Below are positions 11,254 to 61,929 of a DNA stretch of 64,000 nt, one piece after another. The stretch lies in the NCBI RefSeq assembly GCF_900105395.1, contig NZ_LT629775.1, positions 7,405,501-7,469,500 of the forward strand. The letters are read 5' to 3'. A program made the translations under genes and the position numbers. The first letter of the stretch is position 1, and each line of letters starts with the position of its first letter. Below the pieces are notes generated by a model, which saw only the letters and a program-made list of their open reading frames with translations, ran no database searches and was not told where the DNA came from. Source of the DNA: Streptomyces sp. TLI_053. GTDB lineage: Bacteria; Actinomycetota; Actinomycetes; Streptomycetales; Streptomycetaceae.

Positions 11254-11609
11254 GCTGGCACTCCCCTGTGACAACGCCCCCGCCGGGGCCGCGAAGGTCC
11301 CGGAAAGTGCCCCCGAGTGAGGAGGGTCACCCGTCGGGGCGGTGCGGCGGGCCGAGGCGGTCCCGGGCCCGCCAGGACTGGACAGGGGCCGCGGCGGCAC
11401 GGGCGGAGGGCCCGTCCGCTTCGGGACCTTGGTCACGAATTCGCCCGACCTTCGGCCCGGTGGCGCCCCCTCCCGGCCCGGGCAACCGTGGACGGTCGCC
11501 TGCTCACACCGGGCGACGGCACCACCCGCCGGGCGGTGCCGATCCCTGCCGTCTACCCGGCGCACACCGTGCGGAAGTACACCGTGCGCTCCGGAGGACC
11601 CGAAGACCC
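11254..11609. other. Divergent intergenic region
   Basis: 356 GC-rich bases between the diverging AbiEii-partner and MFS genes. No gene is supported. It holds an inverted repeat (CGGCACC 11517-11523, GGTGCCG 11535-11541) and a 10-base direct repeat just before the MFS gene. Confidence 0.5.
11564..11588 (+). repeat. Direct repeat upstream of MFS gene
   Basis: ACACCGTGCG occurs at 11564-11573 and 11579-11588, 15 bp apart and on the same strand, 21 bases before the ATG at 11610. It may be a tandem protein-binding site, but no regulator is adjacent. Confidence 0.35.
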
Positions 11610-13013
11610 ATGTCCAGCACCATCGACAACGCCCCGTATACCGCCTTCCACCGCAGACTGGCCCTGGCCTGCTCCGGTGGGCCGCTGCTCGACGGCTACA
11701 TCCTGAGCATCGTCGGCGTCGCCCTCATCGGGATGCGCCCCGAACTCGGCCTCTCCACCGCCGAGGTCAGCCTGATCGGCGCCGCCGCGCTGGTCGGCAT
11801 GTTCGTCGGCGGCGCGCTCTTCGGCGTGCTGACCGACCGCATCGGCCGGGAGGTGATGTACACCGCCGACCTGCTCGTCATGGTCGCCTGCTCGGTGCTC
11901 TCCTTCTGGGTGGACACGGTGTGGGCGATCGCCCTGCTGCGCTTCGTGCTCGGCATGGCCGTGGCCGCCGACTACCCCATCGCGACCTCGCTGCTCGCCG
12001 AGTGGCTGCCGGCCAAGCACCGCGGGCGGCTGCTCGGTCAGCAGATCGTCGCCTGGTACGCCGGCTCCGTCCTCGCCTACGTGACCGGCTACGCCTTCCT
12101 GCGCTTGGCCGGCCCCGGCAGCTGGCGCTGGATGCTGGCCAGCTCCACCGTGCTGTGCGTCGTCTTCCTGGTGATCCGCCGCGGCTCGCCGGAGTCCCCG
12201 CGCTGGCTGGCCGCCAACGGGCGGGTCGGTGACGCCGTGCGCGTGGTCGAGAAGCACCTCGGCGTGCGGGTCGACGGCCGGGAACTGATGCCCGACCCCG
12301 CACAGGCCGCCGGGCCCGGCGGGCTGCGCCTGCTGATGACCCCGCCCTACCGGCGCCGCACCCTGTTCTGCGGCCTGTTCTTCCTCTGCCAGGTCGGCCC
12401 GCTCTTCGCGATGCTCACCTTCGGCCCGCAGATCCTCTCGTCCTTCGGCATGCCGGGCGGCACGGTGATGGAGACCCTGGGCACCGGCCTGATCAGCCTG
12501 GTCTTCCTGCTCGGCTGCTACCCCGCGCTGCGCCTGATCGACACCCGGGGCCGACGGCCGGTGATCATCTGGTCGTTCGCCCTGATGACCGTCCCGCTCG
12601 CCCTGCTCGGCGTGTGGCCCACCGCCCCCGCCGCCGTCGCGCTCACCGCGCTGTGCGCCTACGCCTTCCTCTGCGGCGGACCGAACGTGCTCGACTGGAC
12701 CTACCCCAACGAGCTGTTCCCCACCGAGATCCGGGCCACCGCCGTCGGCGTCGCCACCTCGGTGAGCCGGATCGGCGCCGCCGTCGGCACCTACCTGCTG
12801 CCACTCTCCCTGACCGGCCTCGGCACCGGTCCGACGATGCTGATCGCGGCCGGCACGACGGCCCTCGGCCTGCTGGTGTGCGTCCTGTGGGCCGAAGAGA
12901 CCCGCGGCACCGCCCTGGGCGCGGCCCCGGCCGCCGCCGAGCCGGCGCCCGCCGGGGCGACGGGCGCACGCAAGGGCGTCCCGGCCCAGCGCGTGGCGCA
13001 GTCGGTGCGCTGA
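11610..13013 (+). CDS. MFS transporter, sugar/metabolite-porter type
   Basis: 467 residues with about 12 predicted membrane segments. GGAGGA precedes the ATG. The loop after segment 2 reads GVLTDRIGREVMY and segment 4 is followed by PAKHRGRLLGQ, both hallmarks of the sugar-porter and metabolite:H+ symporter branch (GxLxDRxGR and PxxxRG). A PESPRWLAANGR in the central loop also matches this branch. Substrate unknown. The polar C-terminal tail is Ala/Pro-rich. Confidence 0.85.
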   Translation: MSSTIDNAPYTAFHRRLALACSGGPLLDGYILSIVGVALIGMRPELGLSTAEVSLIGAAALVGMFVGGALFGVLTDRIGREVMYTADLLVMVACSVLSFWVDTVWAIALLRFVLGMAVAADYPIATSLLAEWLPAKHRGRLLGQQIVAWYAGSVLAYVTGYAFLRLAGPGSWRWMLASSTVLCVVFLVIRRGSPESPRWLAANGRVGDAVRVVEKHLGVRVDGRELMPDPAQAAGPGGLRLLMTPPYRRRTLFCGLFFLCQVGPLFAMLTFGPQILSSFGMPGGTVMETLGTGLISLVFLLGCYPALRLIDTRGRRPVIIWSFALMTVPLALLGVWPTAPAAVALTALCAYAFLCGGPNVLDWTYPNELFPTEIRATAVGVATSVSRIGAAVGTYLLPLSLTGLGTGPTMLIAAGTTALGLLVCVLWAEETRGTALGAAPAAAEPAPAGATGARKGVPAQRVAQSVR

Positions 13014-13064
13014 CCTTCCCGCTCCGCGCGCAGACGTCCGAGCCTGCGGCCCTGCCGGAGGAGC

Positions 13065-13111
13065 CCCCGCTCCCGGTGTCCGTCCGCCGTGGACGGACAC
13101 CGGGAGCGGGG
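13065..13111 (+). terminator. 21-bp perfect stem terminator after the MFS gene
   Basis: Arms 13065-13085 and 13091-13111 are exact reverse complements with a GCCGT loop, followed by CTTTC. Confidence 0.85.
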
Positions 13112-13203
13112 CTTTCAGCTGGCCCTCGAGTCCCGGGCCCGCCCGGCGACGCTGGCACCCGGGTGGCCCCGCCAGCTGGAGATATCAGCAAAGATTGCTG
13201 CTG

Positions 13204-14116
13204 ATGAGTGTCCGAGTCCGGCCGGTGGCCGTCCGTCGTACCGGCACCGCCGCGCATCAGTACCTCGGCGAACTGCGGGCCGACCTGACGAAGGCCCAGG
13301 CCGTGGCCACCGGAGCGGAGGCCGGCGAACCCGCCTTTCTGCTCGGCGAGATCGATACCCAGCTCGCCGGGACCGGCGTCCGCTGCACGGTCTCCCGCGC
13401 TGAACTGCGCCAGGTCGTCGCGGCCACCCAGTGGCCGACCACCGACCGGACGGTCCACCCGCGCGACGCCGCGTCCACCTGGTCACCCGAATTCGGCGGT
13501 TTCGTCGACCAGGTAACCGGCGGACCACTGCCCACCTGGGACGAAGCCCTCGACGGCATCGACGACGACCCCGAAGCCCAGCCCGTGCACGTGATCCGCT
13601 TCGGCCCCAGCTCGACGCCCAGGGCGTCCTGGTCGGCTCACCGCAGGCGGCCCGATGCGTCGGTTGCCTGACCAAGTCCGTCGCCGAGTGCCACACCCCG
13701 ACCGGCACGACCGAGAGCGACCACGTCGACCGCCTCGCCGCCGAACTCCGCCACGGCATCCAGCCCAAGAACGCACACCCCGCCCTGCGCCCCGGCGCCT
13801 GCCGCTCCCGCGCTCACAAGCGCGAACACATCGGCCATGACGGTCGGCGGGTGCTGGTATCCCGCAAGTGGTCTGGCAAGACCCTCGCCGACCACCGCAC
13901 CGGCCGCCGGACCTGGGTCCTCGACATCCTCGCGACACCGCCGCCCGCACCGAACCCCACCGCTACCTCTGGGAACCCGTGCGCCGCGGCGACCCCGACA
14001 TGTCGCCCCTCACCACCCGCCTCCGGCGGGCCGTCGCCGAACGCGTCCGCTGCCGTGCCGCCCTCGACCAGGCCCTCGAACGAGCAGGAGGCGAGCGGTG
14101 TCCGACGACGACCTGA
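13204..14116 (+). pseudogene. RepSA-like replication initiator, frameshifted
   Basis: Three reading frames together give a RepSA-like product. The first frame ends its homology with PTWDEALDGIDDDPEAQPVH near 13605; a one-base loss in a C-run then moves the match to the second frame, which reads LDAQGVLVGSPQAARC, LTKSVAECHTP, GIQPKNAHPALRPG, HKREHIGH and SRKWSGKTLADHR. Near 13935 a further shift leads to EPHRYLWEPVRRGDPD and the C-terminus ending at 14116. The usual YLTKYLTKSV motif is shortened to GCLTKSV, and the segment before GIQPKNA is missing. RepSA drives rolling-circle replication of integrative elements; this copy cannot do so. Confidence 0.75.
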
Positions 14117-14280
14117 TTGCCGTCCCCGAGGTCACGGGCCGGCTGCGGCTCGGCCGTTCGGCAGTCTACGACCTGATCTGGACCAATCGACTGCGTTCGA
14201 TCACCATCGGCCGGGCCCGCCGCATCCCGTACGGCTCGTACCGCTCGTTCGTGGCCTCCCGACTGCAGGAGGCAGCCTGA
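14098..14280 (+). CDS. xis: Excisionase (Xis), MerR-like helix-turn-helix
   Basis: 60 residues from a GTG behind AGGAGG. DLIAVPEVTGRLRLGRSAVYDLI then RIPYGSYRSFVASRL is the winged-helix pattern of AICE excisionases, which bend DNA at the attachment site and direct integrase towards excision. It appears intact, unlike its neighbours. Its start lies inside the RepSA remnant and its TGA shares a base with the integrase ATG (TGATG). Confidence 0.8.
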   Translation: MSDDDLIAVPEVTGRLRLGRSAVYDLIWTNRLRSITIGRARRIPYGSYRSFVASRLQEAA

Positions 14281-40901: not shown

Positions 40902-41482
40902 GGCGGCCGGCGCCGCCGTCGCGGACCGTTCCGAGCGGGTGTTCGGCCGGACGATCGTTGCGACGGCTCCTTCGGCCGGGGCGCGGTGGCCCGTTCGGCC
41001 GGGCACGGCGGCCCGCGGTACCGGTACCGGGGGCCGCCGCGCCGGTCCGACGCGTGCGGTGGTGAGCCTGCAGTGGGCAACCCCGCTGCCCGGGACCGGT
41101 TCGCAGCCTGACGACCGCAGCCTGAGAACCGCGGCCTGACGACCAGAGCCTGACAACTGCGGCCTGACGACCGGAGCCTGACAACCGCGGCCCGCTCTCC
41201 GTCGGCGGACTCGCCGAGGTCGAGCTGACCTGCCGCCCTGCCGCCCCCGCCGGTCCGGGCAAGGAGTCCGGAGCCGCCGGTCCCGGGCGGATCCTCGGGG
41301 CTCGGGGGACCGGTCCCGTGCACGTCCGTCCTCGCCACGGTGCTGGTCGGAGCCGGTGCTGGTCGGAGACGTACGGCGGCCGCGGCCCCCCGGAGGCGTC
41401 CGGCCGAACTCGGCGGCGCTGTCGCCTGCAGTCCGTACAGTGGACGAAGCACTGTGCAGACGTTTCGGGGGAGTGCAGATTC
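40902..41482. other. Intergenic region with minisatellite
   Basis: 581 bases between rpe and the helicase gene. A weak hairpin GGCGGC/GCCGCC (40902-40917) may end rpe. The centre holds six 14-base tandem repeats. No gene is supported; the promoter of the helicase gene should lie in 41190-41460. Confidence 0.5.
41104..41187 (+). repeat. 14-bp minisatellite, six copies
   Basis: Units start every 14 bases at 41104, with the form CAGCCTGACGACCG and variants such as GAGCCTGACAACCG. From the third unit on they alternate CGG and GAG starts, giving a 28-base higher-order repeat. It lies 300 bases upstream of the helicase/nuclease gene. Confidence 0.8.
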
Positions 41483-44400
41483 ATGACGCAGGCCGAGCAG
41501 CCCTATCCGGTTCCCGAACTCCTGGCCGCCGTGCAGGCGGAGATCCGGGCGGAACGCCGCGACGAGGCGAAGGACGCGGAGAAGGCGGCGCTCTCGGACG
41601 GGCGGCCGGTGTCCGCCTCGGAGGGTCGTTACGAGTACCTCTTCGGGTGCGACAGGTGGCCGGGGTCCTTCGACGGCGGCCCCGTCCTCGTGCGTCCCGC
41701 CCAGGCACGTGGCGCCTGGATCCCCGCCGAGGCCTCCCCGATGCCGGACGGGAGGGTCCGGCTGGTGGTGAGCGAGGGGCTGCCGCCCGGGGCGCGCAAC
41801 GTGCAGGTGCGGAAGGACGATTCGGCGGGGCTGCTGGTACTCGCCGAGCGGCTGGAAGCCGCGGGTGCGGAGGACGGCGGCATCCGGGTCGAGAGCGCCG
41901 GTTGGGTCGTCGGGCAGGGCGCGCCGACGGTGGCGCTGGCGGCGGACCCCGAGAGGTGGGTCGCCGGCTGGCACGGGCTGAAGCTCAACCCGCGTCAGCG
42001 GACCGCGGTCGCCCAGGCCCTGGCGAGCGAGGTGCTGTTCCTCTGGGGGCCGCCGGGGACGGGGAAGACCGATGTCGTCGGCCACATCGTGGAGGGCAAC
42101 GTCCGGCAGGGGCACACCGTTCTCTTCCTGGCACCGACCAAGGTCGCCGTCGATCAGGCGCTGGAGCGGATATGCGACCTGCTGGAGGCCGAGCAGGGCT
42201 TCGCCGAGGGCCTCGTCCAGCGGGCCGGGGAGATCGAACTGCCGTCGCTCCGCGAGCGGTACGGGGACTTCGTCGACCCGGCCCGGGTCGCCGGCCGGGT
42301 CTCGGCGCAGCTGGACGGAGCGGCGCGGGAGGCGCGGGAGGCGCTGCGGCACCTCCGGGCGGGCGTTGCGCTGTACGACGAGGTCCGGGAGCTGGAGCAG
42401 CGTCTCGACAGGGACCGGAGCGCCCGCCAGGAGGCGGCCGGATCCGCCGGGACCGCGGAACGCGACGCACTGCGGGCCGAGGCCGAGGCGGCCCGGCTGC
42501 GGCTGGCCGTCAGTGAGGTGGGGGACCCGAGAGGTCTCTTCGCCGCGCGGAGGGAGCAGCGGCTCACCGCGCTGAGGGCGGACCTGACGCGGGCGACCGA
42601 GGCCGCCTCCACGTCCCAGTACGTCGGAGCGGCCGCCCGGAAGCAGGCGGAGGAGCTCGCGGCCCGGATCGGCGCGACGAGCGGGACCCTCGCGGGCCTG
42701 CGGCCCCGGCTCGTCGGCCTTCCCGCGTACACGACGCTCGTCCGCGAGGCCGGCACTCTTCAGGAGCGCATCCAGGACCTCGACCGGCAGCTTTCCCGCA
42801 TCAAGCAGACCGTCCGGTCCCGGTGCCGGGTCATGGGGGCCACGGTCGCCAAGGCGGTGCAGTCGCGCAAGCTGCTCGACCGGGTGGACGTCGTGGTGGT
42901 GGACGAGGCGGGCATGGTGGACCTGCCCTCGGCCTGGCTGGCGGCCGGTCTGGCGGGGAAGCGGCTCGTCGTGGCAGGCGACTTCCGGCAGCTGCCCGCC
43001 GTCACCAAGGGGGACGGCGACCGGAGGGCCACCGAGGAGGAGCGTGCGCACGCCCGGGACTGGACCGCGCGCGACGCCTTCCACGCGGCCGGCCTGGTGA
43101 GCGGGAACGGCTCCGTGCGCCAGGACCCGCGCCTGGTGGCACTGGACACCCAGTACCGCATGCGTGAGGCGATCTGTCGGGTGGTCAACGTCGTGGCGTA
43201 CCCGGACGCGCCGCTCGCGACAGGGCGCGCCGACGGCAGCCGCATCCCGGCCAACCCGCTGGTGGATGCCCCCGTGATCCTCGTCGACACTTCCAAGCAG
43301 CGGATCCCGGGCCCCGACTACCGCGCGAACACCGTGAACGAGGCCGTCGTCCACGAACTCGTCCGCGGCCTCCAGTACGAGGGAGTGCTCCCCGGCCGCA
43401 AGTGGGGGAGCGCGGAGACCGCACCGGGGGAGCGCGCGACGGACCGGCTGGCGGTCATCGCGCCCTACCGGGCACAGGTCAGGGCACTCAAGGGGAGCCT
43501 GAAGTACCGGTTCGGGGAGGACTACGAGGGTCTGGTGGACACCATCCACCGGTTCCAGGGCAGTCAGCGCCCGATCGTCGTCTTCGACACCGCGGTCGGC
43601 GCCGGAAAGGACCCCGGCATCTTCTACGCCGGAACCGGTCTCTCCTCCCAGACCTGCCGCCTGCTGAACGTCGCGCTCAGCCGGGCCCAGGACCACCTGA
43701 TCGTGGTGGCCGACGTCGAGCACCTGCGCAAGCACCTCAGCCCGCACAGCGAGGCCCGGGCCATGCTCGACCATCTGGAGAGCCGTGCCCAGGTGATCTC
43801 GGCCGACCAGTTGATCCCGACCCGTGACGCGGCTCAGCTGTCGGTCCTGTCGGACGAGGAGCTGGCACGGCCTGCCTTCTTCCCCGCCGACGAGGTGCAG
43901 AAGGCCGTGGAGTGGGACATCGCCCGCGCCCGGACCAGCATCGAGGTCCACTGCGCCTTCCTCGATCCGACGCCGGTGCGCCACTGGTCGGCGCTGCTGG
44001 GCGCCCGTGCGGCCGACGGAGTGAGGGTCGTCGTCCACACCCGGTCGCCGGAGGAGCAGCGGGAGGAGGCCGGGGCGGCCCGTCACCGGAAGCAGATCGA
44101 CATCCTCAGGGCGGCCGGCTGTCAGGTGGGCTTCCGTGACCGCATGCACGAGAAGGTGCTCATCCTCGACGACTCCGTGCTCTGGCACGGCTCGCTCAAC
44201 CTGCTCGCGAGCAGTGGACCGACCGACCTGATGATGCGCTTCACCGACCCCGCGTCCTGCGAACGGGTCGCCCGGGTCATCGACCGGGCCCGCAAGGAGC
44301 GGCCCGCGTGGAACCCGCGGGCGGCGGGGGACGCGGCGAGCGGCGTGAGGGTTGCTCCGTCCCCGCGCGCCGCTACCGGTGCGGCGGGCATACGCCCGGG

Positions 44401-44557
44401 GGACGTCGTCGACGGGCGGCTCTATCTCAATGTCCCGTACGGCGAGAAGGACGACGCGAAGAGGCTCCTCAAAGCCGGCTGGGACAAGCCGAACAGGCTC
44501 TGGTACGTCGATGCCGCGCGAGTGACCAGGGAGCAGGCCGCCCGCTGGCTCCCCTGA
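41483..44557 (+). CDS. SF1 helicase-PLD nuclease-DUF5710 fusion (Mokosh type II-like)
   Basis: 1024 residues, ATG after GGGGGAG. The N-terminal two thirds is a DNA2/NAM7/Upf1-type SF1 helicase: Walker A GPPGTGKT (189-196), a coiled-coil-rich insert (about 280-440), Walker B DEAGM (474-478), GDFRQLPA, ALDTQYRMRE and VDTIHRFQGSQ plus LNVALSRAQDHLI. A phospholipase-D domain follows with one HKD motif, H889-x-K891 and D896 in MHEKVLILDD, plus the usual GSLNLL. The last 45 residues (LYLNVPYGEKDDAKRLLKAG, then LWYVDA) are a DUF5710 module. MkoC, the single protein of type II Mokosh phage defence, joins the same helicase and PLD parts; the DUF5710 tail is extra. Confidence 0.85.
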   Translation: MTQAEQPYPVPELLAAVQAEIRAERRDEAKDAEKAALSDGRPVSASEGRYEYLFGCDRWPGSFDGGPVLVRPAQARGAWIPAEASPMPDGRVRLVVSEGLPPGARNVQVRKDDSAGLLVLAERLEAAGAEDGGIRVESAGWVVGQGAPTVALAADPERWVAGWHGLKLNPRQRTAVAQALASEVLFLWGPPGTGKTDVVGHIVEGNVRQGHTVLFLAPTKVAVDQALERICDLLEAEQGFAEGLVQRAGEIELPSLRERYGDFVDPARVAGRVSAQLDGAAREAREALRHLRAGVALYDEVRELEQRLDRDRSARQEAAGSAGTAERDALRAEAEAARLRLAVSEVGDPRGLFAARREQRLTALRADLTRATEAASTSQYVGAAARKQAEELAARIGATSGTLAGLRPRLVGLPAYTTLVREAGTLQERIQDLDRQLSRIKQTVRSRCRVMGATVAKAVQSRKLLDRVDVVVVDEAGMVDLPSAWLAAGLAGKRLVVAGDFRQLPAVTKGDGDRRATEEERAHARDWTARDAFHAAGLVSGNGSVRQDPRLVALDTQYRMREAICRVVNVVAYPDAPLATGRADGSRIPANPLVDAPVILVDTSKQRIPGPDYRANTVNEAVVHELVRGLQYEGVLPGRKWGSAETAPGERATDRLAVIAPYRAQVRALKGSLKYRFGEDYEGLVDTIHRFQGSQRPIVVFDTAVGAGKDPGIFYAGTGLSSQTCRLLNVALSRAQDHLIVVADVEHLRKHLSPHSEARAMLDHLESRAQVISADQLIPTRDAAQLSVLSDEELARPAFFPADEVQKAVEWDIARARTSIEVHCAFLDPTPVRHWSALLGARAADGVRVVVHTRSPEEQREEAGAARHRKQIDILRAAGCQVGFRDRMHEKVLILDDSVLWHGSLNLLASSGPTDLMMRFTDPASCERVARVIDRARKERPAWNPRAAGDAASGVRVAPSPRAATGAAGIRPGDVVDGRLYLNVPYGEKDDAKRLLKAGWDKPNRLWYVDAARVTREQAARWLP

Positions 44558-45254: not shown

Positions 45255-45657
45255 GTCGGCTCCTTCGGTGGTGTGTGGTGTCCTGGCCTCCCCGGTGGGG
45301 GCCGGAGCGGTGCGATTGTGGCCACGGGGGTGGGTGGGTCGCCAGATCCGTGGTCCGGGGGAGCGGGCGGCGGGGGGCCGGGTTTCCGGTTCCGGGGCGG
45401 CCGAACCGGGTCTGGTCTGCGGTTTCTGACGCGGCCATGTCTCGCCGGCGGGACGGCGGGCGGGACGGCGAGTGGGACGGCGGGCCGTGCGAGGGGGTGC
45501 GGCGCGCGGTGCGGCCGGCCGGACGGCGGGCGGTGGGGGAAGTGCCCGGGGCGCGGTGGGGGTGCGGCGGGGGATTCCGAAGGCTGGTCTAGACCTTGAA
45601 GCGGTGCGGTTCGTTCCCCAAAATGATCGACTGTTGCTGAACAACGGGGAGGACAGC
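45255..45657. other. Divergent intergenic region before the LmbU gene
   Basis: 403 very GC-rich bases containing short GGGACGGCG repeats (about 45450-45490). It must hold both promoters, but none is clear. No gene is supported. Confidence 0.45.
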
Positions 45658-46296
45658 ATGCGAAGGGCGGATCGGCCGGACGACGTGAGGATTCTGGGAA
45701 GGCGTACCGGGAGAGGGTCGGAACTCTCCAGGGACCAGACCTCGCTCGCCCTCCCGGCCAGGCTCCCGATCGACGCGTGGATGCGCATCGGGCAGGATCT
45801 CGGAACCGCGGCGGATTCCGCGACCTGGTGGCTCGGCGACTGGCTGGTCTACGGCCAGGACCGATATCCCGAACGCTACCGACGGGCCATTGACGAAACC
45901 GCGCTGGATTACCAGACGCTGCGGAACTACGCCTGGGTCGCCCGGAAATTCCCGCCGGGCCGCCGCAGGCCGGTGCTGAGCATGCAGCACCACGCCGAGG
46001 TCGCCTCGCTGGATCCCGAGGTGCAGGACAACTGGCTCGACCGGGCGCAGCAGGGCCGTTGGTCCCGCAATGAACTCCGCCGCCGGATCCGCACCGCCAC
46101 CACGCCCGGCGCGGGCGCTCGCCCCATCGCGGTCGAACTCCGGCTCGCTGTCACCCAGGCCCGCCACGGCCTCTGGGAGGACGCCGCCGACCGGGCCAAC
46201 CGCGATCTCTCCGCCTGGGTGCTGGAGGTGCTCGACGCCGCCGCGCGCCGGGCCACCGAGGACCGTGAGCGGATGCGGATCGCCGAGGCGGGCTGA
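45658..46296 (+). CDS. LmbU-family transcriptional regulator
   Basis: 212 residues, ATG behind GGGGAGGA. It follows LmbU/NovE throughout: LALPARLPIDAWMRIGQDLG, TWWLGDWLVYGQDRYPERYR, AIDETALDYQTLRNYAWVARKFP and SMQHHAEVASLDPEVQDNWL, then WSRNELRRRIR. LmbU proteins are DNA-binding activators found almost only in antibiotic gene clusters (lincomycin, novobiocin, hormaomycin). A strong terminator after it shows it is its own unit. Its presence marks the following genes as a probable biosynthetic cluster. Confidence 0.88.
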   Translation: MRRADRPDDVRILGRRTGRGSELSRDQTSLALPARLPIDAWMRIGQDLGTAADSATWWLGDWLVYGQDRYPERYRRAIDETALDYQTLRNYAWVARKFPPGRRRPVLSMQHHAEVASLDPEVQDNWLDRAQQGRWSRNELRRRIRTATTPGAGARPIAVELRLAVTQARHGLWEDAADRANRDLSAWVLEVLDAAARRATEDRERMRIAEAG

Positions 46297-46316
46297 CCGG
46301 CCCGGGGCCCGGGGTC

Positions 46317-46348
46317 CCCGCCCCCCGGTCGGCGGACCGGGGGGCGGG
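46317..46348 (+). terminator. Terminator after the LmbU gene
   Basis: Perfect 14-bp arms (46317-46330, 46335-46348) with a GGCG loop, 20 bases after the stop. Confidence 0.8.
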
Positions 46349-46366
46349 TGGACGGAACGACGGACG

Positions 46367-46393
46367 TTGACGCGCCGAATTACCGGCTATTTG
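46367..46393 (+). promoter_or_regulatory. Possible promoter of the PhyH operon
   Basis: TTGACG (46367-46372) and TATTTG (46388-46393), spaced by 15 bases, shorter than ideal, in the AT-richer part of the 284-base gap before the PhyH gene. A LmbU site may lie here, but its motif was not identified. Confidence 0.3.
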
Positions 46394-46580
46394 ATGACCG
46401 GGGTCGGGAAACGCCGGAACGGCGAACACCCGATCCGCCATCGGGCCGCGCACCAGGAATCGCGAATCGCGACCGCGGAATGAAGCGACGGAACGAATCC
46501 ACGGCGTTCCGCCGTGCCCGCGCCGATCGGACGCGGCGAATTCCACCGGCCCCGGACCGTACACGGGAAAGGATCAAGTC

Positions 46581-47417
46581 ATGACCGTCAGCGCGAACCC
46601 CGACCTGGTCGGCGTATTCCGGGAGGACGGATTCGTCTTCGCCGGAACCCTGCTCTCCGCCGACGACGTCGACGCGTACCGGGCGATCTACGACCGCTTC
46701 CTCAGCGGTGAGATCGAGAGCGGCGACAAGCGCTCCGACCTCGGCTCGCACGCGCCGCGGGCCGAGGGCGCCGAGGCCGGCGTCGAGAACATCACCCAGA
46801 TCATGTGGCCCTCCGCGCTCCACCCGCCGATCCTCGACCTGCCGCTGCACGAACGCGGACTCGCCCTCGCCCGCGAGCTGATCGGCGACGACGCGATGCT
46901 CGACTTCGACATGCTGATCCACAAGGCCCCGCACACCGCGGTGCCCACCCCCTGGCACCAGGACGCCGCGTACTGGATCGACCTGCCGGACACCCGGGCC
47001 GTCTCGCTCTGGGTGGCCCTCGACGACACCGGGCCGGACAACGGCTGCATGTGGTACGTGAAGGGCTCGCACACCCGGCCGCTGCGCCCGCACCGCCCCA
47101 CCAGCGACGGCAAGAACATCGAGTGCGACTGCTCGGAGGACGAGCCCGGGGCCACCGCGGTGCCGGTGACGGCCGGTCAGGGCATCGCGCACTCCGGCAC
47201 CACCCTGCACTACTCCCGCGGCAACACCAGCGACCGCGTGCGGCGGGCGTACATCCTCAACTACCGCCCCGCGGCGATGATCCGGCTGGAGCGCGAGCAG
47301 GGGTCGGACCACGGCCTGAACGACAACGAGCGCAAGGTCCGCAACGCCGGCGCGGACGGCACCGACAGCGTGGACGGGAGCGCCGGAAACGGCGGGACCG
47401 CCGGCGCCACCCGCTGA
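46581..47417 (+). CDS. PhyH-family Fe(II)/2-oxoglutarate dioxygenase
   Basis: 278 residues, ATG behind AAAGGA. Iron ligands: H126 and D128 in PTPWHQDAAYW and the distal His of GIAHSGTTLHYS; the oxoglutarate-binding Arg is in RRAYILNYRP. NGCMWYVKGSHTRPL is typical of PhyH enzymes that hydroxylate small natural-product substrates. The last 30 residues are Gly/Ala/Asp-rich. It is probably the first gene of an operon with the next five + strand genes; the substrate is unknown. Confidence 0.88.
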   Translation: MTVSANPDLVGVFREDGFVFAGTLLSADDVDAYRAIYDRFLSGEIESGDKRSDLGSHAPRAEGAEAGVENITQIMWPSALHPPILDLPLHERGLALARELIGDDAMLDFDMLIHKAPHTAVPTPWHQDAAYWIDLPDTRAVSLWVALDDTGPDNGCMWYVKGSHTRPLRPHRPTSDGKNIECDCSEDEPGATAVPVTAGQGIAHSGTTLHYSRGNTSDRVRRAYILNYRPAAMIRLEREQGSDHGLNDNERKVRNAGADGTDSVDGSAGNGGTAGATR

Positions 47418-47461
47418 TCCGACCCCGACGGACCCCCACCCCCCCACAGCGAGGTACTTCG

Positions 47462-49477
47462 ATGGATGCCAGTACGGACAGCAGTAAGGACAGCCGCACG
47501 GACGCCCGTGGCGACTCGGCCCGGGTACGGCTGAGCGGCGCGGTGATGAGCCACCCCAAGCGTGCGGAGGAGGCGCGGCGGCTCGCCGACGCCGACCCCC
47601 GGGGCCGCGTCCTCGTGATCATGGACCCCGAGCCGGACGGCCGTCCGACCGCGCTCCGGGTGGCGCCGCTCTCCTGGTCCTGCGTGGCGCCCGACGCCAC
47701 CCACCACCTGGTGCTGCAGGACGACGTGGTGCTCGCCGAGGGCTTCTACGAGCACGCCGAGCGCGCCGCCGCGGCGGCCCCCGGCGAGGCGATCGCCCTC
47801 TACGCGGGCTGGGAGGCCCGCAACGGTGCCGTCGCCCGGCTCGCCGCGCTCGCCGGCGCGCCCTGGGCGTACACCCTCCAGGAGCACGTGCCCTGCCAGG
47901 CGCTGATGCTGCCCGCCGAGGCCGCCCGCGGCTACGAGGCGTACCAGCGGGAGCACGGCGGCGGCTGGCCCTACGACGTGGTGGTGCAGCGCTACCTGAA
48001 CGCGATCGGCATGCCGGTGCGCTTCTGCACCCCCAGTACGGTGCAGCACGACGACCTGCCCAGCCTCGCCGGCAACACCTACCACGGCTTCCGGCAGGCG
48101 ACCCTGTTCACCGGCGCGGCCGGTCCGGCGGAAGCCGACGGGCCGTGCCCGCGCTTCCCGGTGGTGCCCTTCTACCAGTACGGCGAGGCCCGCTGCGCCG
48201 TCCTGCGGGGCACCGAGTGGGAGTACCTGGAGACCGAGCGGCAGCTCGCCCGCACCGGCCTGCTGGACGCCTGCCTGGCCGCCCTCGCGGCCGCCGGCCC
48301 GGACGCCGCGGCAGGTCTGCCGGACGGCGCCGGCCGGGCCGTGTGGCTGACCGCGTTCGCCCTCGGCGCCGTCACCGCGGACCTGCCGGAGCCGGACCCG
48401 GGGATCGCCGCCGCGGTCATGGAGACGCTCGGATCGGGCGGTCTGTGCGAGGAGTTCACCGCCGCCGAACTGCTCGCGGCGGCCCCGGCGGTGCGCGACC
48501 TCGCGCTGACCGCGCTCGCCGCAGGCCGCCGCGCCGGAGCCGACCCGGCCGCCCGCACGCCCCGCCCGGCCCCGCTCGCCCGGGTGGCCGTCACCGGTGG
48601 CGACCCCGCCTTCGCCCGGCAGCTGGCCCGGCTGCTCGCCGACGCAGGACACGGCACCGGCGAGGGCGCAGGACACGGCACCGGCCGGGGCGCGGGCCAC
48701 GACGCGGTGCAGCCGGCCGGGCGCCCGTCCGCCGGGGACCTCGACGGCGTCCGGTACGTGGTGCACCTGGGCCGCCCCGAGGACGACGGCCTGCTGGCCG
48801 ACGTGCTCGCCGCCGCCGCCAAGGCCGGGGTGGAGCGGGTGGTCTACGCCGGGTCCTCCGCCGTCTACCGGGGCATCCGCGAACGGACCGTCACCGAGGA
48901 ACTCCCGGCCGCCGCCCCGGCCGATCCGGTGGCCCTGGCCTGGTGGCGGGAGGAGCAGGCCGTCCTGGCCTGGGGCGCGGAACACGGCGTCGCCGTGCAG
49001 CTCCTGCGCCTCGCCGACCCGGTCGGCCGGTACGCGCCGCAGGACAGCCCGCTGGTGCGGTGGGTGAACCTGGCCTGGACCCGGCGACCGCTGGCCCTGA
49101 ACCCGCTGGGCCGCCACCAGGTGCTGGACCACCGCGACCTCGCGGACGCGCTGCGCGCCGTGCTGGCGGCGCCGCCCGCCCGGCCGGTGTTCAACGTGGC
49201 TTCGGCGGCCTTCGACGAGCAGGAGCTCGCCGGGTTCCTGGCCGACGTCTCGCGCCGTACGCCCTGGGAGTGGGTCCAGGACCCGACGGTCGACCGCTGG
49301 ACCATGGCGACCGACCTGATCGGGGCCGAACTCCACTGGCAGCCCTCGGCCGAGCTGCGCGAGAGCATGCGCGCCCTCGCCCAGTGGTGGGCCTGCGACA
49401 TCCACGGCGACTACACCGTCGCCGCCTCCGTACCCGCCGTCCCCGGCGCCCCGAACGGGCCCGACGCGCGGGCGTGA
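47462..49477 (+). CDS. Glycosyltransferase-like / degenerate SDR fusion
   Basis: 671 residues, ATG behind GCGAGG. Residues 25-250 look like a small glycosyltransferase of the GT25 type: VMSHPKRAEEARRLAD, then HLVLQDDVVLAEGF with a possible metal-binding DD, and QEHVPCQALMLP. After an Ala/Pro/Gly linker, residues 365-660 follow the extended-SDR (nucleotide-sugar epimerase) fold: VAVTGGDPAFARQLARLLAD, then VERVVYAGSSAVYRG. The catalytic YxxxK is absent (LAWWREEQAVL stands in its place) and the Rossmann glycines are altered, so this half is probably non-catalytic. Likely a tailoring or assembly protein. Confidence 0.7.
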   Translation: MDASTDSSKDSRTDARGDSARVRLSGAVMSHPKRAEEARRLADADPRGRVLVIMDPEPDGRPTALRVAPLSWSCVAPDATHHLVLQDDVVLAEGFYEHAERAAAAAPGEAIALYAGWEARNGAVARLAALAGAPWAYTLQEHVPCQALMLPAEAARGYEAYQREHGGGWPYDVVVQRYLNAIGMPVRFCTPSTVQHDDLPSLAGNTYHGFRQATLFTGAAGPAEADGPCPRFPVVPFYQYGEARCAVLRGTEWEYLETERQLARTGLLDACLAALAAAGPDAAAGLPDGAGRAVWLTAFALGAVTADLPEPDPGIAAAVMETLGSGGLCEEFTAAELLAAAPAVRDLALTALAAGRRAGADPAARTPRPAPLARVAVTGGDPAFARQLARLLADAGHGTGEGAGHGTGRGAGHDAVQPAGRPSAGDLDGVRYVVHLGRPEDDGLLADVLAAAAKAGVERVVYAGSSAVYRGIRERTVTEELPAAAPADPVALAWWREEQAVLAWGAEHGVAVQLLRLADPVGRYAPQDSPLVRWVNLAWTRRPLALNPLGRHQVLDHRDLADALRAVLAAPPARPVFNVASAAFDEQELAGFLADVSRRTPWEWVQDPTVDRWTMATDLIGAELHWQPSAELRESMRALAQWWACDIHGDYTVAASVPAVPGAPNGPDARA

Positions 49478-49606
49478 CCGTACCGGCCGGCGGCGCCCCG
49501 TCCGGTGCCGCCGGCCACCCCGCCCCGCCCCGCCCCCACCGCGTCCCCTCCCCGCACGCTGCCGCCAGCGCAACGAGCCCGCCACCGCCCACCCCTGGAG
49601 TACCGC

Positions 49607-51466
49607 ATGTCCGCCATAGCCGGCTGGGTCGACTTCTCCCACGCCACCCCCTCCCACGACCCCGCGGATCCCGCGGACGGGCAGGACGTCGTCCGGGCCA
49701 TGACCACCGCACTGGCCGGGCGCGGGCCCGACGGCGAGGGGCTGTGGAGCTCCGCGCACGCCGCCCTCGGGCACCGCCGCACCGCCCGCGACCCGCACCC
49801 CCAGCCGGTCACCGCCCCCGGCGACACCGGCCCGCTCGCCGTGCTCTCCTTCGCCGGCCATCTCACCAACGCCCGCGCGCTGCGCGACCGCCTCACCGCC
49901 GCCGGGCACCGCGCCGTCACCGGCGGCGAGGCCGAGGCCGTGCTCCAGGCGTACCTGGCCTGGGGCGAGGACTTCGTCACCCGGATCGAGGGCAGCTACG
50001 CGCTCGCCCTCTGGGACCCGCGCCGGGAGGAACTGCTGCTGGTCCGCGACCGGATGGGCGTCAAGCCGCTCTTCTGGGCGGCCACCCCGGACGGCGTGCT
50101 GTTCGGCTCCGAGCCCAAGGCCGTGCTCGCCCACCCCGGCTTCCGGCGCGTCCTCGACGCCGACGGCCTGCGGGACATCCTCTCCGTCGCCCGGGTCCCG
50201 GGCCACGCGATCTTCCGCGGCCTGCGCGAGGTCCTGCCCGGCGCGCTGCTGCGGGTCGGCCGCACGGGCGCGACCGAGCGCCGCTACTGGCAGTTGCGGG
50301 TCGCCGGCCACTCCGACGACCTGGCCACCACCGTCGACACCGTCCGCACGCTGCTGGAGGACGCCGTCGCCCCGCACCTGGACGGCGAGGAACTGCCCCT
50401 CTCGCTGCTCTCCGGCGGCCTCGACTCCAGCACCCTCACCGCGCTGGCCGCCGACCTCGCCCACCGCCAGGGCCGCGGTCCGATCCGCTCGCTCGCCGTC
50501 AACGACCAGGAGCCGGGCGCCGACGGCGTGGCGGCGCAGGGCAACGAGGACCACCACTACGCCCGGCTGATGGCCGAGCACGCCGGCACCGAGCACGGTG
50601 AGATCTCGCTCGCCGGCCTGGACCTGCTCGACCCCGCGCTGCGCGCCTCGGTGCTCGCCGCCTACGACATCCCGATCAACAAGGGCGACCAGTACGCCTC
50701 GCTGCGGCTGCTGTTCGGCGAGGCGCGCCGGCACGCCGCCGTCGCGCTGTCCGGCGAGTGCGGCGACGACGTCTTCGGCGGCTACAACTGGAACCGGCTG
50801 CCCGAGTGGATCGCCCGGCCGACCTTCCCGTGGGTGGCGGAGGGCCGTCCGCGCTTCCTCGGCACCGACGTCGTCTTCGACGCCGGACTGCTCGGCAAGC
50901 TCGACCTGGCCGGCTACGAGGAGGACTGCCACCGGGACGCCGTCGCCGAACTCGCCGCCGCCGACGCGCTCGCCGACCCGGTCGAGGCCCGTTACCGCGA
51001 GGTCACCTACCTCGCGCACACCCGCCACACCCGGGTGCTGTTCGACCGGCTGGACCGCCTCGGCAGCGCGGCCGGGCTCGACATCCGGGTGCCGTTCGCC
51101 GACCCCCGGCTGGTCGAGTACACCTTCAACATCCCCTGGGAGATGAAGGCGTTCGACGGCCGGGAGAAGAGCCTGCTGCGGGCGGCGATGAAGGACCTGC
51201 TGCCCGAACCGGTGGCGATGCGGATCAAGACGCCCTACCCCAACCTGCGGGACGCCGGCTACGACCGGGTGCTGCGGGAGCGGCTGGCCGGGGTCGTGCT
51301 GGACCCGGACAGCCCGGTCGCTCCGCTGCTCGCGCCCGGGCTCCGGGCGGCGGTGGCCCGGGACGGCGCGGACGCCCTGGTGAAGGGGGTCGGCCGGGCC
51401 GCGCTCGAGACCGCCCTGCAGACTGACGCCTGGCTGCGCGCGTACGGGGTCGAACTCGCGCTCTGA
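49607..51466 (+). CDS. Asparagine-synthetase-like amidotransferase lacking the glutaminase Cys
   Basis: 619 residues. Both AsnB domains are present: an N-terminal Ntn-like domain (AGRGPDGEGLW, LGHRR, GDRMGVKPL-like RDRMGVKPLFWA) and a C-terminal ATP-pyrophosphatase domain with the PP-loop SGGLDSS (269-275), SGECGDDVFGGYN and IRVPFADPRLVE. The protein starts MSAIAGW; family members start MCGIAG, and that Cys2 is the glutaminase nucleophile. Its loss means no ammonia from glutamine; the same loss is known in beta-lactam synthetase, which makes an intramolecular amide. The real acceptor here is unknown. Confidence 0.88.
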   Translation: MSAIAGWVDFSHATPSHDPADPADGQDVVRAMTTALAGRGPDGEGLWSSAHAALGHRRTARDPHPQPVTAPGDTGPLAVLSFAGHLTNARALRDRLTAAGHRAVTGGEAEAVLQAYLAWGEDFVTRIEGSYALALWDPRREELLLVRDRMGVKPLFWAATPDGVLFGSEPKAVLAHPGFRRVLDADGLRDILSVARVPGHAIFRGLREVLPGALLRVGRTGATERRYWQLRVAGHSDDLATTVDTVRTLLEDAVAPHLDGEELPLSLLSGGLDSSTLTALAADLAHRQGRGPIRSLAVNDQEPGADGVAAQGNEDHHYARLMAEHAGTEHGEISLAGLDLLDPALRASVLAAYDIPINKGDQYASLRLLFGEARRHAAVALSGECGDDVFGGYNWNRLPEWIARPTFPWVAEGRPRFLGTDVVFDAGLLGKLDLAGYEEDCHRDAVAELAAADALADPVEARYREVTYLAHTRHTRVLFDRLDRLGSAAGLDIRVPFADPRLVEYTFNIPWEMKAFDGREKSLLRAAMKDLLPEPVAMRIKTPYPNLRDAGYDRVLRERLAGVVLDPDSPVAPLLAPGLRAAVARDGADALVKGVGRAALETALQTDAWLRAYGVELAL

Positions 51467-60566: not shown

Positions 60567-60888
60567 GAACGTCTTGCCCCCGTTTCGCAATGCCGCCCCC
60601 GGAACGCGGGCGGCGAGACTCCGGCCCCCGCCGGAGTGCCGAACGCCCGCCCCTCGGACCCCGTCCCCAGTGGTTCGACGCAGGTCGAACGGGGGTCACT
60701 ACTCGTGGGTAGGCATCGGCGGTCCGGATCTTAAGCACGCTCGGACGGCATTGGCAATGCCCGCCGAACGGCGGGGTCGGGAACCCCCGGTTCGGCGTGT
60801 GATGCAGCCCACGGCTCCACCCGTTCACCGACGTCTTGTCAAGATCGCGGCAAGTGTGCGAGGTTGACGGGCGTTGTTCAAGACGTTT
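60567..60888. other. Divergent region between DUF402 and the riboswitch
   Basis: 322 bases holding the two promoters and a palindrome at 60673-60690. TTGTCA (60836-60841) and GAGGTT (60860-60865), 18 bases apart, could start the riboswitch transcript near 60872. No gene is supported. Confidence 0.45.
60673..60690. promoter_or_regulatory. Palindrome in the divergent promoter region
   Basis: GTTCGAC-GCAG-GTCGAAC, a perfect 7-4-7 inverted repeat about 110 bases upstream of the DUF402 start and 200 bases before the riboswitch. A candidate site for a cluster regulator, possibly LmbU, which is not proven. Confidence 0.45.
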
Positions 60889-61015
60889 GCGCACTCCGGG
60901 GTCGGTGAAATTCCGAACCGGCGGTTACAGTCCGCGACCCGTCCGCCGCCAGCGGCCGGTTGACCAGGTGAAACTCCTGGACCGACGGTTAAAGTCCGGA
61001 AGGGAGGCAGTGCGC
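60889..61015 (+). ncRNA. FMN riboswitch (RFN element)
   Basis: The conserved blocks follow in order: CCGGGGTCGGTGAAATTCCG, ACCGGCGGTTACAGTCCGCG, then TTGACCAGGTGAAACTCCTG, ACCGACGGTTAAAGTCCGGA and AGGGAGG. The closing helix P1 is GCGCACT (60889-60895) with AGTGCGC (61009-61015). In bacteria FMN binding turns off the downstream riboflavin gene. It lies 150 bases before ribB. Confidence 0.95.
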
Positions 61016-61030
61016 GGCGGGCAGGTTTTT

Positions 61031-61164: not shown

Positions 61165-61929
61165 ATGGGCCACACCACGGGCACGACCACCGCCGACGCG
61201 ACCTCGTACGCGGCCGGCGACACCGAGCAGCCGTTCGACTCCGTCGAGTACGCGGTCGCGCAGATCGCGGCCGGCCGGGCGGTCGTCGTCGTCGACGACG
61301 AGAGCCGCGAGAACGAGGGCGACCTGGTCTTCGCCGCCGAGCTCGCCACCACCGAGCTGGTCGCCTTCGCCATGACCGAATGCCGCGGACTGCTCTGCGC
61401 CCCGATGACCGGCGCCGACCTCGACCGGCTGGAACTGGACCAGATGGTCCGTGAAAACACCGAGCACCACCGCACCGCCTTCACCGTCTCGGTCGACGCC
61501 GCGGCCGGCATCAGCACCGGCATCTCGGCGGCCGACCGGGCGCTGACCCTGCGGCTGCTGGCCGAGCCGGGCACCCGCCCGGCCGAGCTGGTGCGCCCGG
61601 GCCACGTCTTTCCGCTGCGGGCGGTCGACGGCGGTGTGCCGGCGCGGGCCGGTCACACCGAGGCCGGGGTGGACCTGTGCCGGCTGGCCGGCCTGCGTCC
61701 GGCGGCGGCGATCTGCGAGATCGCGATGGCCGACGGTGCCATGGCCAGACTGCCGGAGCTGCGCGAGTTCGCCGGCCGGCACGGCCTGGCGCTGATCTCC
61801 ATCGCCGACCTGATCGAGTACCTGCGCACCGCGGGCGGTGCGGCCGGGGCGGCGGTCCCGGAGGGTGCGGCCGGGGCGGCGGTCCCGGCCGGAGCGGCAC
61901 GGACGGCGGTCGCGGTGGCCGCCGGCTGA
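61165..61929 (+). CDS. ribB: 3,4-dihydroxy-2-butanone-4-phosphate synthase, monofunctional
   Basis: 254 residues, ATG behind GAGGAGAG. It converts ribulose 5-phosphate to formate and DHBP, the C4 donor of riboflavin. Signature [10 protein letters not shown] (44-53), [15 protein letters not shown], the segment [17 protein letters not shown], and [13 protein letters not shown]. There is no GTP cyclohydrolase II domain. The C-terminal 35 residues are Ala/Gly/Val repeats not needed for catalysis. Unlike normal Streptomyces rib operons, no ribA, ribE or ribH follows; a carrier protein and an ATP-grasp enzyme do. Confidence 0.92.

Follow-up and report, generated by a model that had tools for sequence, protein, structure and literature searches.

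Among the described systems closest to the gene discussed here are some that combine a helicase with a phospholipase D (PLD) nuclease. In Mokosh defense of type I, helicase (MkoA) and PLD protein (MkoB) are encoded separately, and in type II a single protein, MkoC, carries both; the available part of one account gives MkoC as an RNA-helicase domain plus a C-terminal nuclease domain (PMC10740426). According to the accessible text of the Asgard paper, Mokosh degrades viral transcripts and its helicase–PLD pairing can be compared with the eukaryotic piRNA pathway (PMC11291487). A further system, CoCoNuT, has CnuH, a UPF1-like superfamily 1 (SF1) helicase in which Walker A is followed by a large insertion, helical and in part coiled-coil; its partners are McrB-like CnuB and CnuC (PMC11090510, in its available portion). 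Here we consider a gene of Streptomyces sp. TLI_053, found in a stretch of 64,000 nucleotides (contig NZ_LT629775.1, positions 7,405,501 to 7,469,500 of the forward strand; hereafter the window), which encodes a helicase, a PLD domain, and a DUF5710 domain in one chain. We infer that it is, on balance, probably a solitary antiviral helicase–nuclease, built like type II Mokosh and belonging to a separate, mainly actinobacterial lineage with a conserved C-terminal DUF5710.

The three-part fusion is real and well conserved. As the sequence-only reading of the window had claimed, all three domains sit in one protein: Pfam matches to AAA_11 (residues 167–509), AAA_12 (551–745), PLDc_2 (813–933, 30.1 bits with a cut-off of 27), and DUF5710 (PF18974; cut-off 26.5 bits) are above cut-off, and the motifs GPPGTGKT, DEAG, and H889-x-K891-x4-D896 are where that reading placed them (Table 1). 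The open reading frame (ORF) has a strong coding score in our own GC-based gene caller, and nine of the 10 copies in genomes of the genus (the window's own counted) align over residues 1–1024 or from residue 3 or 4 to 1024; in the tenth, an interruption lies close to the end. An alternative in-frame GTG start at 41318 would give a longer ORF, yet the alignments of several homologues begin at residue 1 (41483). The gene also stands alone, as had been noted from the letters: the upstream gene ends ∼580 bp away, the downstream gene is convergent and ∼30 bp off, and there is no fixed partner gene. The genome is a single contig of 9.9 Mb, and the gene lies on its forward strand as read in the window. 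In the intergenic region on its upstream side, a 14-nt unit forms a tandem array (window 41103–41192).

Table 1. Parts of the helicase–PLD–DUF5710 gene, with window coordinates and the basis of each assignment
Feature	Coordinates	Strand	Basis
Helicase-PLD-DUF5710 gene	41483..44557	+	ORF, 1024 aa plus stop; Pfam domains; homologue alignments
N-terminal helix and beta-rich domain, residues 10-165, ahead of helicase core	41510..41977	+	Model secondary structure; VIA-align rows to UPF1-like helicases start at model residues 1-6
Helicase core part 1, residues 166-265, Walker A GPPGTGKT 189-196	41978..42277	+	Pfam AAA_11, motif positions
Residues 266-447, long helical hairpin separating Walker A from motif II	42278..42823	+	Model helices 266-346, 354-410, 416-447; block pLDDT 77-95
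Helicase core part 2, residues 448-775	42824..43807	+	DEAG 474-477, GDFRQ 499-503, QYRM 557-560, HRFQGSQ 689-695, ALSRAQ 731-736
Single-HKD PLD nuclease domain, residues 790-935	43850..44287	+	PLDc_2; H889, K891, D896, HGSLN 902-906; fold and profile matches
Linker, residues 936-974, mostly disordered, poorly conserved	44288..44404	+	pLDDT <50 at 937-968
DUF5710 domain, residues 979-1024	44417..44554	+	Pfam 58.8 bits

Set beside the systems above, the window protein shares with MkoC the one-chain plan, in which a PLD domain follows an SF1 helicase, and the large insertion after Walker A. It differs in its DUF5710, which was found in neither of the two MkoC proteins checked (from Yoonia and Marinobacter). 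With type I it has the helicase and PLD classes in common, but not the two-gene MkoA/MkoB layout: both domains are in one chain, and Pfam gives no kinase match. The likeness to CnuH, compared by description rather than by sequence, lies in the UPF1-like helicase and the large helical insertion after Walker A. CnuB and CnuC are co-encoded with CnuH, whereas neither was seen beside the window gene (neighboring translations judged by eye; five neighbors negative in PADLOC; McrB and McrC profiles not run on all neighbors). None of the matches of a literature search combining Mokosh and Streptomyces had either word in its title or abstract, and a helicase–PLD–DUF5710 protein was not found described in the literature searched (subscription papers were mostly outside reach).

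A full-length structure model built on 16 homologues (mean predicted local distance difference test score [pLDDT] 83.9; predicted template modeling score [pTM] 0.63) resembles UPF1-like helicases up to about residue 800. The top PDB match is IGHMBP2 (Z 26.2; 533 residues aligned, root-mean-square deviation 7.3), and Dna2 (Z 24.5), Senataxin (SETX; 23.8), and UPF1 (23.8) also match. With the SF1 motifs and this predicted fold both present, the protein belongs to the UPF1/DNA2-like SF1 helicases, and the eight helicase residues that we checked are kept in 16 of 16 alignment rows. In the model, Walker A and motif II are separated by a long helical hairpin; neither this insertion nor the beta-rich N-terminal domain figured in the sequence-only reading. 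The ratio of nonsynonymous to synonymous substitution rates (dN/dS; Nei-Gojobori, per domain, with values from seven of nine pairs) is 0.06–0.18 for the first part of the helicase core and 0.06–0.12 for the second, 0.11–0.25 for the PLD domain, and 0.11–0.37 for DUF5710 in six pairs, with 0.78 in one pair that has a dS of 0.06. These low values indicate that the helicase and the PLD domain are under purifying selection, as DUF5710 is in most pairs. The hairpin, with 0.25–0.68, is the structured part that evolves fastest (the linker has 0.28–0.45 in the five pairs where it is defined). This fits a sensor under change, with the caveat that coiled coils often evolve fast.

The sequence-only reading had named the lack of a nuclease fold in the PLD segment as an outcome that would count against it. 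When the C-terminal 247 residues were modeled on their own (mean pLDDT 85.8), the model matched PLD-fold proteins, so that objection falls: Zucchini/PLD6 (4ggk) and Nuc (1byr) head the PLD-fold matches in Foldseek, and by profile the domain matches Zucchini (4ggj) at E 2e-5. With the HxKx4D motif inside a predicted PLD fold, the domain belongs to the PLD nuclease superfamily. Its active site is conserved: D896 and R919 are found in all 16 alignment rows, and H889, K891, S904, and N906 in all but one. Zucchini/PLD6 and Nuc share the single-HKD fold; they are free-standing nucleases, whereas the PLD domain here is fused to a helicase.

DUF5710 had been taken for an extra domain on one protein. 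This did not hold: the domain recurs throughout the actinobacterial clade of helicase–PLD homologues and is conserved there; the idea of an accidental tail was rejected on the same grounds. The match in the window protein is the only one in the 9.9-Mb genome, and DUF5710 was not found in any of 14 control genomes. A search of 98 genomes of the class gave six matches in five genomes. The helicase–PLD–DUF5710 family accounts for five of these matches, namely those in the window, G078, G265 contig 7, and G280, plus one in G211, where the copy is fragmented; the remaining match is at the N terminus of a 236-aa protein in which Pfam finds nothing else. In the Nitrospirota relative (locus L029), the C-terminal part has a Top1-type zinc ribbon and no DUF5710 match. 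Profile comparison of DUF5710 with solved structures gave five matches, none convincing (best E 0.34), and the Foldseek list for the PLD–DUF5710 model is headed by PLD-type matches and is thus uninformative on the DUF5710 fold. A resemblance to the HARP domain was also considered, but no result supports it. DUF5710 is also found fused to Rep_3 plasmid initiators, according to the available part of one paper (PMC11233732).

The surroundings of homologues, which the sequence-only reading had proposed as a check, were compared at 20 loci, where 241 genes were called within 9 kb, a strong match being one of at least 200 PADLOC bits. Excluded were two loci on short contigs (L017 and L027), one with masked stretches (L055), the broken L082/L083 and L101, and loci that were of the same species, at the same site, or duplicates (L019, L022, L023, L024, L031, L061, L104, L105). 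A strong defense-gene neighbor lies within 9 kb at nine of the 20 loci: a type I methyltransferase (L015, 268 bits), a type I restriction endonuclease (L016, 804), a DruE-type protein (L020, 286), a DrmD-type protein (L026, 618), a type III methyltransferase (L029, 415), HmaA (L030, 1186), a type IV restriction endonuclease (L058, 1311), Orf5 (L098, 585; GmrSD in Pfam), and DpdE (L102, 1629). L015 also has McrC adjoining an AAA_5 gene of McrB type, and weaker signs of defense are found at L018 (a gene with a GmrSD N-domain) and L056 (a fragment of McrC). Among the own-genus neighbors, one more protein strongly matches DpdE/ZorD (E 3e-124) and one matches SoFic (E 2e-42); the proteins were not pinpointed, as alignment scans report families rather than the matching protein, and they are not counted. 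The 97 case proteins from 11 loci matched 235 PADLOC families, and 97 control proteins from 14 regions matched 31 at E 1e-10. The case set was assembled by hand (some genes dropped, L015:8156-9850 added), as was an own-genus subset; for the controls, 112 proteins were selected and the first 97 used, from the 14 of 16 regions that were obtained. It should be noted that two versions of our gene caller differ, and that only one of them calls the L015 methyltransferase.

The distribution is patchy. The gene is present in 10 of 70 genomes of the genus, in six of 41 genomes of a family sample (one a broken copy in two pieces), and in two of 100 genomes of a phylum sample, both from the window's family (all counts include the window's own genome). 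A search of genome contigs returned 40 loci. Seventeen of them (L015–L031, which include several from one species, all at E 1e-110 or below) are relatives in more than the common helicase core, and the rest are distant helicases. Copies are broken in G075, G211, G019, and L022, and two copies (L010/L057 and L022) have a transposase-like insertion (by eye) at DUF5710. Nocardia copies nest among those of Streptomyces and Kitasatospora in the tree, which suggests transfer. Phage records gave no homologue match, plasmid records gave 30 partial matches (mostly helicase-type, none covering 80%), and viral contigs gave two partial matches.

Several observations weigh against a role in defense. Strong defense-gene matches at nine of 20 loci against one of 14 control regions (one family below E 1e-60, in one protein, Cas3e) give a one-sided Fisher p of 0.019, but the comparison is biased: singly scanned neighbors were picked by eye, case loci have more genes per locus, controls come only from the window's genus, and bits are set against E-values. 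Eleven of the 20 loci have no strong match counted (the window, L018, L021, L025, L028, L056, L057, L059, L060, L099, and L103; not every gene was scanned singly), and L060/L061 are near an apparent metG (by eye). None of the five window neighbors tested singly matched PADLOC. The 54 hand-assembled own-genus case proteins (six loci) matched 37 PADLOC families, which is not far above the 31 for 97 control proteins. In the exceptional alignment row, from Actinokineospora auranticolor (L031; 9968–12661), the helicase is kept and the PLD domain is degenerate, without H and K; neither PLD nor DUF5710 is matched by Pfam there, although the lineage's own PLD profile still detects the degenerate domain at 64 bits. 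Finally, IGHMBP2, Dna2, Senataxin, and UPF1, the nearest solved folds to the helicase part, lack a PLD domain and have eukaryotic housekeeping roles, so defense cannot be read from the fold.

The sequence-only reading had assigned the protein to type II Mokosh, and the part of this that stands is the single protein with helicase followed by PLD. That it is a true but divergent MkoC member that gained DUF5710 is an unlikely alternative to a separate lineage, and one with evidence on each side. Besides the same domain order, a BLASTP alignment with Yoonia MkoC spans both domains (residues 461–910, 24% identity, E 7e-16), though the PLD domain alone is weak (E 0.019) and the first 248 residues of Yoonia MkoC are not convincingly covered by BLASTP segments. 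The family's PLD profile detects the Yoonia PLD domain (22.5 bits, E 5e-8 in a set of 12), which has recognizable H-x-K and GSYN motifs and a Pfam PLD match below cut-off. A large gap between Walker A and motif II is common to both (285 residues in the window protein and 402 in Yoonia MkoC, vs. 163 in four short Bacteroidota helicases). However, PADLOC gives the window protein only 140 bits for MkoC, in three stretches (the best being residues 649–912 against profile positions 853–1103 of 1136), which is far from the level of the two full-length matches, plasmid proteins from Yoonia (1230 bits) and Marinobacter (699 bits) that match nearly end to end; the level was judged against these two and not against PADLOC's own cut-off. 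Short helicases in which no PLD domain was recognized already reach 106–114 bits (three from Bacteroidota, 619–665 aa) and 108 and 132 bits (two plasmid proteins, 575 and 583 aa). In a tree of 18 rows with long branches (24 in an earlier version; two rows were dropped for want of a motif), the actinobacterial clade joins L029 and the PLD-less L032 (95/95), apart from MkoC. Forcing the helicase–PLD rows and MkoC into one clade costs 7.2 log units, which, with long branches, the approximately unbiased (AU) test does not reject (p 0.0585). The weak, unspecific MkoC match and the tree thus leave a protein built like type II Mokosh whose membership is not established. The MkoA score of 178 bits (MkoB, 34) was rejected as evidence for Mokosh, since the short Bacteroidota helicases score 260–284 and an Acinetobacter plasmid helicase 331; it marks the helicase superfamily only. 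The Marinobacter MkoC match itself (L088, 3337–6891) shows neither a PLD match in Pfam nor an H-x-K/GS-x-N pair.

The other alternatives to a solitary defense gene concern function. A role in housekeeping or repair, with R-loops or damaged DNA as the target in the manner of Senataxin, IGHMBP2, or Dna2, would agree with the fold matches and with the ordinary-looking neighbors (by eye) at L021, L028, and L060, but we consider it improbable given the presence of the gene in just 10 of 70 genus genomes, its broken copies, its varying genomic positions, and the strong defense-gene matches nearby at nine loci. It is likewise improbable, and slightly more so, that the gene is an accessory component of adjacent multi-gene systems (ARMADA type II, Hma, restriction–modification). 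Here the case is made by a UvrD gene, with an N-terminal part that is RelE-like by eye, which recurs near the gene at L015, L020, and L030 and may fit the ARMADA type II helicase, a fusion of a RelE-like part with a UvrD/GajB-like helicase in the available part of its description (PMC12458937). At L029 (7017–14934), moreover, the gene has close neighbors on both sides in an operon-like arrangement, with a UvrD-type helicase (by eye) 30 bp upstream and the type III methyltransferase 21 bp downstream. Against it, the UvrD gene is found at three loci, no gene family recurs at more than four of the 20 (those at four look, by eye, like kinases, ATPase-type regulators, and response regulators), and PADLOC matched none of the window neighbors tested. 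A role in self-protection for an adjacent biosynthetic-type gene set is disfavored and very improbable. Such genes do begin ∼1 kb downstream of the window copy, but a copy with 87% identity in Kitasatospora aureofaciens (L015) adjoins the McrBC pair and methyltransferase instead, and, of the genes downstream in the window, just a transporter-like one 7 kb off has a counterpart elsewhere among the 20 loci, at L021.

If the gene is a solitary antiviral helicase–nuclease, its helicase would load on single-stranded phage nucleic acid (a transcript, an RNA–DNA hybrid, or a replication intermediate) and, as its family suggests, move 5′ to 3′ driven by ATP. The fast-evolving hairpin and the C-terminal DUF5710 may contribute to recognizing or holding either the substrate or a trigger from the phage. 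In Zucchini and Nuc, PLD domains pair to form the active site; by its fold, the PLD domain here could do the same, so that two of them would bring their two HKD motifs together in a single active site and cleave the strand without metal. Infection would then be halted directly, without a fixed partner gene. That the substrate is RNA rather than DNA is a guess, about as likely to be wrong as right. We put forward more tentatively, as a possibility that we rather doubt, an independently assembled actinobacterial lineage of fused UPF1-like helicase–PLD defense proteins, nearer to PLD-less helicases than to MkoC, with a swappable C-terminal nucleic-acid module (DUF5710, or the Top1 zinc ribbon in Nitrospirota) and a fast-evolving helical arm that senses phage.

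A few other features were seen along the way. At L102 (168–9514), the full-length DpdE match adjoins a 2108-aa protein with an N-terminal kinase-type match and DruE-type helicase matches as well, which is divergent from the helicase–PLD gene. At L025 (Streptomyces odonnellii; 11308–14208), a 967-aa protein without any Pfam match lies near the gene. In the window, the biosynthetic-looking genes (45634–51466) include, by eye, an LmbU-like regulator, a phytanoyl-CoA-dioxygenase-like gene, and an asparagine-synthase-like gene. The single Rfam match is an FMN riboswitch (60887–61017, 97.3 bits), far downstream of the helicase–PLD gene and upstream of a riboflavin-synthesis-like gene (by eye) at 61165.

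If the more tentative reading, an independently assembled lineage, is true, DUF5710 would be the hallmark of a new one-gene system, and antiviral defense would be the role of most DUF5710 domains in the class. The results suggest that the helicase–PLD pairing behind Mokosh would occur in a second, divergent form, only weakly matched by the MkoC profile. DUF5710, which has no assigned function in Pfam, would gain a testable role, and Streptomyces and its relatives would have a compact, one-gene candidate defense system.

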